Part shown: positions 1 through 58,497 of the stretch, piece by piece
How the letters are laid out: each line of letters starts with the position of its first letter
Numbering within the stretch: the first letter of the stretch is position 1
Assembly (NCBI GenBank): GCA_030427505.1
Contig: JAUICH010000026.1
Location: forward strand, 1 to 64,000
DNA from: Verrucomicrobiia bacterium
GTDB lineage: Bacteria; Verrucomicrobiota; Verrucomicrobiia; Verrucomicrobiales; DEV007
Direction of reading: 5' to 3'
Length of the DNA: 64,000 nucleotides
Notes under the pieces: model-generated
What the model saw: the letters and a program-made list of their open reading frames with translations, nothing else
Databases searched by the model: none
Told to the model about the DNA's origin: nothing
Program-made: the position numbers and the translations under genes

Positions 1-257
1 TTCCACTTTCCAAAGCGGCGGGGCATCTGATTCCACATCGAACCGGTGCATAGAATCCACCAGATTCCGTTAAGAGTCGCGCGCGAATTCAACATCTTGC
101 GGCCCTTAGCACTTAGGCTAGCCGCCTTCCAGTGATCAGATCAATTTTTTTAGCCGTTGAAAAACCGGCTCCGGCATCTGATCTGCTCGATGGACATCCA
201 TCCTTTATTATTTCGTAAAACTTAACATTCTCAACCACTTATATTTGTCCACACTGC
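1..257. other. Non-coding left edge of the window
   Basis: No gene is supported here; the frames are short and without recognisable protein character. The decamer GGCATCTGAT occurs twice (24-33 and 173-182). Bases 243-261 are a 19-base remnant identical to the right terminus of element family B (ATTTGTCCACACTGCCTAG), so an older B element seems to have ended at 261 before the family A element beside it inserted. I could not find the matching left end upstream. Confidence 0.6.
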
Positions 258-456
258 CTAGGGTGTGTGGACAAATTGGCGGACTGCCCGGCGCGAGGCC
301 ATTTTTCGGCTGGCAAGGCGCGCCGAACGCTGTTGGGTGACCCCAATAGAGTGAGGCGGAACGCAGCCAGGCGTAAAATTCGCCGCTTGCGGCGCTGATT
401 CTGTCTTCCTTTTTCATCTATTCCGGGCGGTTCGGGAATTTGTCCATACACCCTAG
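258..456. mobile_element. MITE-like element, family A, copy 1 (internally deleted)
   Basis: A 199-bp element with inverted termini. The left end reads CTAGGGTGTGTGGACAAATT and the right end is its inverse with one mismatch; weaker pairing continues for about 14 more bases. It is the same element as 58279-58497 but lacks about 20 bases between two AAAAT direct repeats. Both ends are CTAG, and those four bases are shared with the neighbouring elements (remnant B on the left, element C on the right). No transposase is encoded. It resembles a non-autonomous element mobilised in trans, with TA (or CTAG) target duplication. The interior is clearly homologous to family B. Confidence 0.75.
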
Positions 457-886
457 TGTGGTGATTGCGAAATATCTAGGCAGTGTGGACAAATTGGGGG
501 CGGACCGGCGCGAGGCCATATTTTGTCTGGCAAGGCGCCGCGAACGGCATTGGGCCGACCCCCAATAGAGTGAGCGGGAACGAAGCCAGGCGAAAAATGG
601 GCCGCGTCTTCAGGTATTCGCCGCTTCGCGGCGCTGAGTTCTCTTTCCTTTTCTTCACTTCCGGTCCGTTCTCCAATTTGTCCACACTGCCTAGACGAAA
701 TCAAATAGGTCATAGAGCTGGAAATTTGGCTCGCTTCGCTCGGATATCTTTATAATCGCGGTCTTCTTTTCCAGTTTCCGCGTTGCTCGATCAATCGTTG
801 AGCTTGCTCAACTCCCTCCTCGCGCCTTGAATTTGAAAAAGAATCCTCGCGAATTTCGTCCACCTATTTCGCAAACACCACACTAG
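453..886. mobile_element. MITE-like element, family C, split by a family B insertion
   Basis: The left terminus (453-474, CTAGTGTGGTGATTGCGAAA then TA) is the inverse of 865-886 with one mismatch. When the B element at 476-694 is removed, leaving one CTAG, the left arm runs on as GACGAAAT and again matches the inverse of the right arm. This shows that B inserted into the terminal inverted repeat of a pre-existing C element. Without the insertion C would be about 215 bp, the size of the other families. No protein is encoded. Confidence 0.7.
476..694. mobile_element. MITE-like element, family B, copy 1
   Basis: A 219-bp element bounded by CTAGGCAGTGTGGACAAATT and its exact inverse. It contains a strong hairpin (CGCCGCTTCGCGGCG, near 621-635) and is about 94 percent identical by eye (some 12 differences) to the copy at 10670-10886. 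It sits inside the left terminus of the family C element. A 69-codon frame spans both copies, but most differences change the residue, so I do not call it a gene. The interior resembles family A, so A and B are branches of one superfamily. Confidence 0.78.
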
Positions 887-967
887 CAGGACAAGAATCT
901 AACGGCTTACGGAAACGGTTAGAAAACAAGGTATTGCTTGACGCGTTTTGTTTGATCCGCCGGGGGC

Positions 968-996
968 TTGGCGGGCGTATCCTTTAATGTTATAGT
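968..996 (+). promoter_or_regulatory. Putative sigma70-type promoter
   Basis: TTGGCG (968-973) and TATAGT (991-996) are separated by 17 bases. Transcription would start near 1003, leaving a leader of about 18 bases before the ATG at 1021. It lies downstream of the repeat chain, so the small gene probably has its own promoter. Confidence 0.4.
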
Positions 997-1020
997 TTCT
1001 GATACAAACCCCTGTATATT

Positions 1021-10616: not shown

Positions 10617-10669
10617 TGTTTGAGGTAGGGTTTGGATTGAGACGTTCCGGTCGCCGGAAGGTGAAAGAT

Positions 10670-10886
10670 TAGGCAGTGTGGACAAATTGGGGGCGGAGCG
10701 GCGCGAGAGCATTTTTTGTCTGGCCAGGCGCCGTGAACGGCATTGGGCCTACCCCCAATAGAGAGAGCGGGAACGAAGCCAGGCGAAAAATGGGCCGCAT
10801 CTTCAGGTATTCGCCGCTTCGCGGCGCTGAGTTCTCTTTTCTTTTCTTCATTTCCGGTCCGTTCTCCAATTTGTCCACACTGCCTA
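10670..10886. mobile_element. MITE-like element, family B, copy 2
   Basis: Bounded by TAGGCAGTGTGGACAAATTG and its inverse, and about 94 percent identical by eye to 476-694. The left boundary is TTAG rather than CTAG while the right is CTAG, which favours TA, not CTAG, as the duplicated target. It lies between two minus-strand genes: 10 bases beyond the SDR stop and 53 bases upstream of the glutathione peroxidase start. It retains the CGCCGCTTCGCGGCG hairpin. Confidence 0.78.
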
Positions 10887-10896
10887 GATCTTTTTC

Positions 10897-22756: not shown

Positions 22757-23054
22757 GGTGGCGTCTGGGGGAGCTTTGGGGTGGCCGGAGTGTTGCGCCA
22801 GACAAGGAGACAAGGAGAGGGAAAAAATGGAGCGGTGCGGAGATGGGTGGGATGGAGTGAGTGGGGGAATTTTGGTTGGGGGTGTGCGTTTTTTGGGGGC
22901 GTTTTCGGGTAGGGACCGGGGGGATTTGAAATCTTGTTGCGGGAATGGGGACTCGTACCTAGTGTTGGGCGCTTTTTCGCCGGGGGTGACATGGGACGGC
23001 AGAGGATAGAGAGCGCTTGCCGGACGGCGGGCTGACGGATAGAAGCGAAGAAAC
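22757..23054. other. Non-coding gap with short octamer repeat
   Basis: This GT-rich 298-base gap between recR and xylulokinase has no convincing frame. It contains two units of GACAAGGA (22801-22816) preceded by TGTTGCGCCA. This is the solo form of the octamer array that brackets the S23 gene at 42851-43502. Nothing else is recognised. Confidence 0.55.
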
Positions 23055-42805: not shown

Positions 42806-42850
42806 GGGGGGAAGGGGGGAGCGGTGCTTTGTGGCGGTGGCGCTGCGACA

Positions 42851-42962
42851 GACAGGGAGACAGGGAGACAGGGAGACAGGGAGACAGGGAGACAGGGAGA
42901 CAGGGAGACAGGGAGACAGGGAGACAGGGAGACAGGGAGACAGGGAGACAGGGAGACAGGGG
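42851..42962 (+). repeat. Tandem octamer array, 14 units of GACAGGGA
   Basis: Fourteen contiguous 8-bp units cover 112 bases; all read GACAGGGA except the last, GACAGGGG. The array has no spacers, so it is not CRISPR. It is preceded by GGTGGCGCTGCGACA and lies 43 bases upstream of the S23-type gene. Related units in the opposite orientation lie downstream of that gene (43471-43502). Unit number is likely to vary between strains, since perfect short repeats are slippage-prone. Confidence 0.95.
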
Positions 42963-50023: not shown

Positions 50024-50219
50024 TCTGGATGAATACTTGAGGGTAGTAAGGCGGAAGATCGATTATGCGTTTCCCCCCGCAATGGAATTTTTTGGGCGGG
50101 GGAGAGATTTATTGGGAGCGTGGAGGCGTGGGGGTGAACGTGGGGCGTGGCGGCGTTTGGCGACAGGCAAGGAGACAAGGAGACAAGGAGACAAGGAGAC
50201 GAGGAGGGGCTTGCTGGAG
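50024..50219. repeat. Gap with solo octamer array
   Basis: The gap holds about five units of the octamer family at 50166-50205 (partial GGCAAGGA, three GACAAGGA, one GACGAGGA), preceded by GGCGTTTGGCGACA. It is the third locus of the repeat that brackets the S23 gene. The array ends 14 bases from the FMN-reductase stop, and the rest of the gap is G-rich without a gene. Confidence 0.7.
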
Positions 50220-50804
50220 TCAGGCCTTTAGTTTGGTGAGGAGGGTTACGAGATTCGTCGTCATGGCCTTTACCTTTTCGGCGTGGCCCGCGTGGGCGAG
50301 CGAACCGCCGTCGTTGAAGGCTTCGTAGGCCTTACCGACGGCCAGTTGTTCAGGTAGGACGGTGACGCCGATGTTTCCCAGGATGGCGCGTAGGTGGACG
50401 AGGCCTCGCAGACCGCCGAGGGCGCCGGGGGAGGCGGCGAAGAGGAGGGCCACCTTGTTCCGGTAGGCGGCCAGGGCCGGTTCGTCATCGGTTTCGGAGC
50501 GGGAGACCCAGTCGAGGGTGTTTTTCAAGGCGGCGGTAACGCTGCTATTGTACTCGGGTGAGGAGATGATGAGCGCGTCGTGATCCAGGAAAAGCTGCTT
50601 CAACTTTTTGGCGTTTTCCGGCAGGCCGGAGGCTTCTTCCTCGTCGGCATCGAAAATTGGTAGGGGAAAGTCCCGCAGGGAGATCAGGGTGACATCCGCG
50701 CCAGCCTCACGCGCGGCGGCTGCCGCGACGGCGGCGAGTGTCTGATTGTAGGAATCTTTCCGGAGGCTGCCTCCGAAAGCGAGAATACGTGGTGGTTGGG
50801 ACAT
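50220..50804 (-). CDS. NADPH-dependent FMN reductase
   Basis: A 194-residue flavodoxin-like FMN reductase of the ChrR/azoreductase-like family. The FMN phosphate loop is FGGSLRKDSYNQTLA (about 10-24), the second FMN segment is IISSPEYNSSVTAALKNTLDW, and ASPGALGGLRGLVHLR closes the site. It reduces FMN or quinones with NAD(P)H. ATG 50804 (MSQPPRILAFG) is preferred to the frame start at 50870, which adds a non-family lead. An AraC gene is divergent from it, 164 bases away; regulation of one by the other is possible but unproven. Confidence 0.87.
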   Translation of the reverse strand: MSQPPRILAFGGSLRKDSYNQTLAAVAAAAAREAGADVTLISLRDFPLPIFDADEEEASGLPENAKKLKQLFLDHDALIISSPEYNSSVTAALKNTLDWVSRSETDDEPALAAYRNKVALLFAASPGALGGLRGLVHLRAILGNIGVTVLPEQLAVGKAYEAFNDGGSLAHAGHAEKVKAMTTNLVTLLTKLKA

Positions 50805-58080: not shown

Positions 58081-58282
58081 CTAGTAGCCCGTCAATTTTG
58101 AAGTGAGAGATGCTTGGACTGAAACGAAAGCCGTTAGCTGATGGACGCGGACCGGTCTTTTTGGCCGGGGCCTTCGTTGCTCTTCAGTCAGTTATGATTC
58201 ACATAGCCTCCTTCCTCGCTCCTTGCCCCCGGCCAAAAATCCTCGCCAATCACCCCTCACCTCAAAATTGACGGACTACTAG
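58081..58282. mobile_element. MITE-like element, family D
   Basis: A 202-bp element whose left end (CTAGTAGCCCGTCAATTTTG, continuing to 58112) is the inverse of 58251-58282 with about 4 mismatches in 32 bases. Both ends are CTAG, and the right CTAG is shared with the neighbouring family A element. It has the size and end type of families A to C but no sequence relation to them outside CTAG. It lies 5 bases upstream of a glycosyltransferase start. It encodes nothing. Confidence 0.72.
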
Positions 58283-58497
58283 GGTGTGTGGACAAATTGG
58301 CGGACTGCCCGGCGCGAGGCCATTTTTCGGCTGGCAAGGCGCGCCGAACGCCGTTGGGTGACCCCAATAGAGTGAGGCGGAACGCAGCCAGGCGTAAAAT
58401 GGGCCGCGTTTTTGGAAAATTCGCCGCTTGCGGCGCTGATTCTGTCTTCCTTTTTCATCTATTCCGGGCGGTTCGGGAATTTGTCCATACACCCTAG
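58279..58497. mobile_element. MITE-like element, family A, copy 2 (full length)
   Basis: A 219-bp element with ends CTAGGGTGTGTGGACAAATT and its near-inverse. It is nearly identical to 258-456 apart from the roughly 20 extra internal bases. It shares CTAG (58279-58282) with the family D element, and its right-hand CTAG (58494-58497) contains the TAG stop codon of the polymerase gene on the minus strand. With element D it fills the entire gap between two exopolysaccharide genes. Confidence 0.78.

Follow-up and report, generated by a model that had tools for sequence, protein, structure and literature searches.

What are the small repeats that lie end to end at the start of this contig, and why do they share their junctions? 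The window, a stretch of 64,000 nucleotides from a Verrucomicrobiia bacterium (assembly GCA_030427505.1, JAUICH010000026.1), begins at the first base of a contig (here denoted C40) of a 6.41-Mb genome. The original prediction described a chain of inverted-terminal elements of three families (a B remnant at 243-261, A, and C with B inserted), in which neighbours share the four bases CTAG. Reading of positions 1-900 and comparison with the genome showed that the chain is real. CTAG occurs at 258-261, 453-456, 476-479, 691-694 and 883-886. A second chain and a lone B element lie further downstream. The features are as follows; the cores named here, with E values of a covariance model built from related copies (denoted R1), are described below.

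1-261, minus strand: 5' end of an IS5-family insertion sequence (IS) with a B-type terminus, cut by the contig start; the transposase reading frame starts at 3-95 (protein match on the minus strand, 31 aa at 100%)
258-261: CTAG shared by the IS end and A
258-456, plus strand: A, a 199-bp deletion form, termini CTAGGGTGTGTGGACAAATT / AATTTGTCCATACACCCTAG
292-387, plus strand: conserved core in A (E 1.9e-16)
453-456: CTAG shared by A and C
453-475, minus strand: left part of C, terminus CTAGTGTGGTGATTGCGAAATA
476-694, plus strand: B (219 bp) inserted into C, termini CTAGGCAGTGTGGACAAATT
509-606, plus strand: conserved core in B (E 2.6e-17; this copy is in the model)
691-886, minus strand: right part of C, 88% identical to the C copy at 684050-684267 of contig C6
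757-851, minus strand: conserved core in C (E 2.8e-16)
10669-10887, plus strand: B, target TTAG; core at 10702-10799
58081-58282, minus strand: F, terminus CTAGTAGTCCGTCAATTTTGA; core at 58151-58247, minus strand
58279-58497, plus strand: A (219 bp), chained to F through a shared CTAG; core at 58313-58408

To examine whether the repeats could be due to chance, we searched the genome with A and with the termini. The A query gave 49 matches, of which some are B elements, fragments or bare termini. The C terminus, at up to 3 mismatches, gave 43 matches and the B terminus 186, whereas reversed control patterns gave 0. No complete ORF of 100 aa or more overlaps 243-886. Short length, lack of a transposase gene, terminal inverted repeats (TIRs), target duplication (see below) and high copy number identify A, B and C as miniature inverted-repeat transposable elements (MITEs). 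The A element at 258-456 lacks 20 bp next to the 3' arm of its core; 5 such forms were found among 29 copies, most others being about 219 bp. As the deletion form sits at several sites, that part is not needed for movement. Elsewhere in the window we noticed tandem arrays of the 8-mer AGACAGGG / AGACAAGG at 42850-42961, 22757-22818 and 50122-50220, each next to a G-rich stretch.

We next looked for the transposase. Many B termini lie 100-200 bases inside contig ends, a sign of collapsed repeats; of 14 such contig ends examined, 11 run into a B MITE and 3 into an IS. Contigs C3, C11, C12, C14, C17, C22, C25, C26, C39, C40, C43, C50 and C51 end inside or near a B element or the IS, hence the copy number of both is probably underestimated. 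Contig C48 holds an 862-bp element with TIRs CTAGGCAG(A/T)GTGGACAAAT at both ends and CTAG flanks. Its 231-aa frame is an IS5-family DDE transposase (NF033580, 224.9 bits, cut-off 110; PF01609, 64.6 bits, cut-off 23; PF13340 also above cut-off). Window 1-261 is 98.9% identical to positions 602-862 of the IS on C48, its 5' end, indicating that 243-261 is not a remnant of MITE B, as first proposed, but the terminus of this IS, cut by the assembly. The main frame begins near profile position 30, and in the locus carrying the IS (L091, 1227-1330, minus strand) a run of seven A lies upstream in another frame, so that frameshifting or another start is possible. The IS427 group of IS5 has elements of 800-1000 bp, TA duplication and two frames joined by a frameshift; length and TA, the duplication itself being shown on the MITEs, fit this group, to which the IS may belong.

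No autonomous IS with the A, C, D, E or F termini was found among the transposase genes located in this genome. Two further IS4/IS5-type transposase genes (C28:9016-9520 and C48:54191-54895) gave no recognizable termini. In relatives, IS5_3 genes were found in 9 of 16 genomes, none with the matching MITE termini; only a 12-letter start is shared in one of them (G286). Of 15 IS4/IS5-type loci scanned for IS-sized inverted repeats (14 from relatives, one own), five from relatives gave 824-941 bp with (C/T/A)TAG ends, one of them CTAGGCAAGGTGGACAAATT; nine gave none and one an implausible pair. IS630 elements use CTAG and duplicate TA, and in an Azotobacter chroococcum HR1 plasmid (L400/L401, locus L400 about 845-890) an annotated IS630-family transposase starts just beyond the CTAG end of a core element, suggesting that a second transposon family may also use the CTAG that these elements create. 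However, a search of the window's genome for the IS630-type DDE_3 domain (PF13358) returned 0 matches, and the IS with B termini is of the IS5 family. An IS630/Tc1-mariner origin is thus refuted for B here, and we consider it very unlikely overall.

To define the target site, we collected 91 complete copies (A 30, B 28, C 16, D 7, D2 4, F 4, E 2); copies under 93% of the query length or too near a locus edge were dropped and duplicates removed by sequence, so that the set is what our loci covered and not all copies in the genome. Of these, 67 have TA at both ends: CTAG 46, CTAA 9, TTAG 7, TTAA 4 and ATAG 1, so 66 of the 67 lie in YTAR. The other 24 lack TA at one or both ends, among them 2 E copies that could not be scored. 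In CTAA and TTAG sites only TA is repeated, indicating that the duplication is TA. Lack of fixed ends, or of CTAG boundaries in most copies, had been set beforehand as grounds for rejection, and the repeats passed. In addition, C is split by B at an internal TATCTAG that is still uninterrupted in 12 of 16 complete C copies elsewhere, an empty-site test inside one genome.

The element begins with G and ends with C, hence insertion at C-TA-G recreates CTAG on both sides and elements can stack end to end. To learn whether the chains require more than this, we counted CTAG in 1.264 Mb (C6 1-800000, C43 1-320000, C51 1-80000 and the window). CTAG occurs 482 times against a Markov expectation of 1416, about three times rarer than its parts predict. 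Of these, 312 are in the coding mask (a simple ORF mask, as for all gene calls here), 124 are non-coding and 46 lie in or at elements, element ends holding 39. The window and C51 had been chosen knowing of their chains and hold 5 of the 7 shared junctions of this sample, hence we recounted on C6 and C43, which were chosen without regard to chains. These hold 23 complete elements (37 pieces), 110 free non-coding and 279 coding CTAGs, 24 CTAGs at element ends and 2 shared junctions. Random insertion gives 3.3 junctions (95% 1-6) into non-coding CTAG and 1.2 (0-3) into all CTAG; if all 37 pieces are counted, 7.3 (3-12) and 2.9 (0-6). If all 49 pieces of the full sample count, the model with coding CTAG included gives 4.5 (1-8). 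Chains in C6 and C43 thus follow from CTAG use, scarcity and regeneration, and no preference for element ends, as originally proposed, is needed there. Nor do composites moving as one unit account for the two B-D pairs on C6, which differ in relative orientation and so are not copies of one composite. Nevertheless, some preference is not excluded. All five IS 5' ends that we saw abut another element, and 12 of 30 complete A copies have a chained end, somewhat more than the roughly 28% that the model for C6 and C43 implies (B, 8 of 28; C, 6 of 16). Over all 91 copies 40 have a chained end, but this count is biased because D, E and F copies were mostly found as neighbours of A, B and C. We regard a preference for element ends, or movement of composites, as doubtful, although the selected origin of 5 of the 7 junctions makes it slightly less so.

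The original prediction held that A and B share their interior. To examine how far this extends, we compared profiles of A+B, C and D+E+F. They find each other's interior at the same position and in the same orientation: A+B to D2 1e-6, C to E 2.5e-6, D-F to C 5.2e-6 and to A 2.2e-5, the best of 910 shuffled sequences per profile being 1.0-1.8. A+B against C directly is weak (0.5, and 0.02-0.17 the other way). The homology therefore reaches well beyond A and B, to D, E and F clearly and to C through D-F. The shared part is a core of ~95 nt at about the same distance from the left end, which the alignment shows as CGCGAGG..TTTTT-[arm]-CAAGGCGCGA.GA.GG..-[hairpin]-..GA.GAGCAACG..G-[arm'], with arms replaced wholesale between families. 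D, E and F differ in the outer ~30 bp (identity 0.39-0.61) more than inside (0.76-0.84, which rules out our initial estimate that their interiors are about 95% alike). Mixed copies exist: A interiors with B-type ends (loci L012:1501 and L015:1501), a B interior with A-type ends (L165:13472), one A-like and one B-like end (L106:170), and one F and one E end (L012:1716). A and B ends differ at few positions, so those swaps are small, whereas D/E/F swaps are large.

Thirty-six cores not chosen by any loop pattern (alignment A2: up to 8 per family, two A deletion copies left out, 5 from relatives) have nearly invariant loops. They pair in 92.4% of cells against 74.0% in shuffles, and the covariation score is 0.482 against 0.166, reached by 0 of 500 shuffles. 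Two of five measures did not exceed the shuffles: pairs with a change on both sides (14 against 13.5) and further pair types (30 against 33.5).

To learn whether the core exists beyond this genome, we used R1, which finds it in 30 of 74 genomes of the family (9 of 18 genera) and in 10 of 288 sampled genomes of the phylum, own included in both, between quite different TIRs. R1 finds 146 copies in the window's genome, possibly a lower bound, as 150 candidates were scored. A pattern made only of loop letters, run on named GTDB genomes, returned at least 113 stretches, of which 80 loci were examined. By record titles, many of them of metagenome bins, these represent at least eight phyla, and are examples rather than a census: Verrucomicrobiota (among them Verrucomicrobiales bacterium CSSed162cmB_98, Verrucomicrobium sp. 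BvORR034 and Verrucomicrobia bacterium REEB427), Acidobacteria, Myxococcota, Desulfobacteraceae, Alpha- and Gammaproteobacteria (Novosphingobium, Sphingomonas, Aureimonas, Pseudomonas, Alloalcanivorax, Thiodiazotropha), Chitinophagales and Saprospiraceae, Planctomycetota, Omnitrophota and Elusimicrobiota. A second model, R2, finds 3 to 140 copies in each of 28 named genomes, which were chosen because they had a hit and most of which gave one row to R2. The strict pattern gave 0 matches in viral contigs.

Of 82 pattern hits, 62 had enough flank. Of these, 45 have a TIR of 14 bp or more with at most one mismatch per 14, against 5 of 257 control positions in the same loci, and 17 have none; hits of one genome were not merged. 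Of the 45, 23 have YTAR at one or both placed outer ends (background 1.7% per 10-mer) and 22 at neither. Sixty-five elements with TIRs (50 from these loci and 15 typed representatives from own, relatives and Azotobacter) form 36 TIR clusters at 11 of 14 letters, with approximate TIR starts and clusters (28 of the 50 scanned elements have TA(G/A) at the placed start).

In the named loci the loop letters are conserved by the choice of pattern, and only arms and TIRs are independent. We therefore examined the arms in 52 named-genome rows (alignment A3, from 73 usable hits, near-duplicates left out by eye). Nine arm pairs give Watson-Crick 360, G·U 51, A·C 8 and other 48; 0.880 of cells pair against 0.510 when rows are permuted (best of 1000: 0.589). 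The excess of G·U over A·C has p 4.5e-9 if cells are independent, the statistics being uncorrected for phylogeny. A2 shows the same, 32 against 6, and the strand folds better than its complement in 55 of 58. On the other strand each G·U would read as A·C, hence we infer that selection acts on this strand as a single strand. We read an inner helix C-GA-N-GA-R / Y-GA-N'-GA-G with a covarying N-N' pair (columns 36 and 72: G-C 29, C-G 15, U-A 3, A-U 2 of 58); that the G-A steps are sheared pairs is an inference.

These data bear on two other readings. In the first, these are ordinary IS5-family MITEs, the core similarity is leftover ancestry and the hairpin a by-product of inverted-repeat DNA. The families of this genome are indeed alike in size and layout, and MITE transcripts often form stable stem-loops (PMC10969869). 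However, neutral decay predicts neither compensated arms with a 51 to 8 wobble bias nor nearly invariant loops, and we consider this reading unlikely. In the second, the core works as single-stranded DNA, a strand-specific hairpin formed during excision or replication. G·T wobble is also tolerated in DNA, and tandem G-A steps and GAA triloops are very stable in DNA. Hairpins with a GAA triloop (such as CGGCGAAGCCG) occur in about 11% of 66 regions 3' of the core in named loci against under 0.5% of 290 controls, and are thus not a general feature. On the other hand, DDE transposons with TIRs are understood to move as double strands, so a preferred strand is not expected, and no ssDNA enzyme was linked to the element. 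This reading remains possible but less likely than an RNA.

To examine whether the core could serve a neighbouring gene, we scored its position and orientation. Own-sample elements are scarce between divergent genes (2, against 17 tandem, 10 convergent and 1 inside an ORF; background 138, 299 and 82) and show no clear orientation preference (5 with, 12 against), which is also compatible with a DNA role. Named loci show neither bias (10 divergent, 23 tandem, 13 convergent, 10 inside an ORF; 12 with and 11 against). This argues against an RNA that needs read-through from the upstream gene. The core does not look like a leader or terminator of the neighbouring gene, and we think that it most likely serves the element itself.

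Together, the original observation is confirmed, and its interpretation is supported in part: fixed ends, TA/CTAG targeting, non-autonomous elements, a transposase-bearing element with the B termini and frequent insertion at existing ends hold, whereas the B remnant, the extent of the shared interior and the need for an end preference had to be corrected, and the core and its spread had been missed. We are fairly confident that the window shows MITEs moved in trans by an IS5-family transposase. The analysis itself establishes the IS with B-type termini, the TA ends mostly within YTAR, the regeneration of CTAG, and the shared core, present with other termini in many bacteria, whose stems covary and whose wobble pairs are biased to one strand. 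Inferred from sequence alone are the mobilization of A to F by this or related transposases, the action of the core as a folded single strand, most likely an RNA, kept because it helps the mini-element spread or be tolerated, and its passage between IS vehicles by exchange of termini, through recombination between elements that leaves hybrid copies and later matching of the second end.

A bolder reading, which we hold to be about as likely as not, is a pan-bacterial superfamily of mini-transposons built around one conserved, strand-specific structured RNA. In this view the RNA-bearing core is the lasting unit; it would change vehicles by swapping terminal repeats, and so use the transposases of many different insertion sequences, and in hosts where it uses CTAG it would multiply its own target sites. 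Bacterial MITEs are usually seen as decayed IS remnants defined by their ends, whereas here the interior is what lasts, the loops staying nearly the same while ends and stems change. If the core is a functional RNA, many unannotated intergenic copies in environmental bacteria have a testable role, and covariance models now exist to find them. CTAG regeneration also explains element chains and predicts where new ones form. Annotation of intergenic repeats and of candidate non-coding RNAs would change.

MITEs and IS5 elements are already known; for the core we found no earlier description. Rfam 15 gave only 4 weak matches far below the gathering scores for window 1-1000 and L091, and none at E up to 1 for loci L200, L203, L204 and L215, copies from other phyla not being included in the scan. 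Searches of the open literature by sequence letters gave nothing relevant and those by topic gave general MITE, repeat or RNA papers, none of whose listings describes this core, although PMC2864571 names motifs not deposited in Rfam ('Transposase-resistance' and others), and prior description there or in ISfinder is possible.

Among known systems, IS5-family insertion sequences (NF033580, transpos_IS5_3; possibly the IS427-like group) match in the transposase model and in the IS-sized inverted repeats with (C/T/A)TAG ends at five of the 15 loci, but the MITEs carry no gene and have the conserved core, which was not noticed inside the IS. Bacterial MITEs in general (PMC10969869) are likewise short, gene-less, bounded by TIRs and able to form stem-loops; what differs here is one conserved structured core shared between elements with different termini and across phyla. 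By analogy, the highly conserved domains of SINEs (V-domain; PMC6887750) are conserved inner modules carried by different non-autonomous elements, in one case riding a DNA transposon, but they are eukaryotic and retro-element based. REP/REPIN palindromes (PMC3733652, PMC2817692) are also high-copy intergenic palindromes in bacteria, whereas the elements described here are of 134-326 bp with long TIRs.
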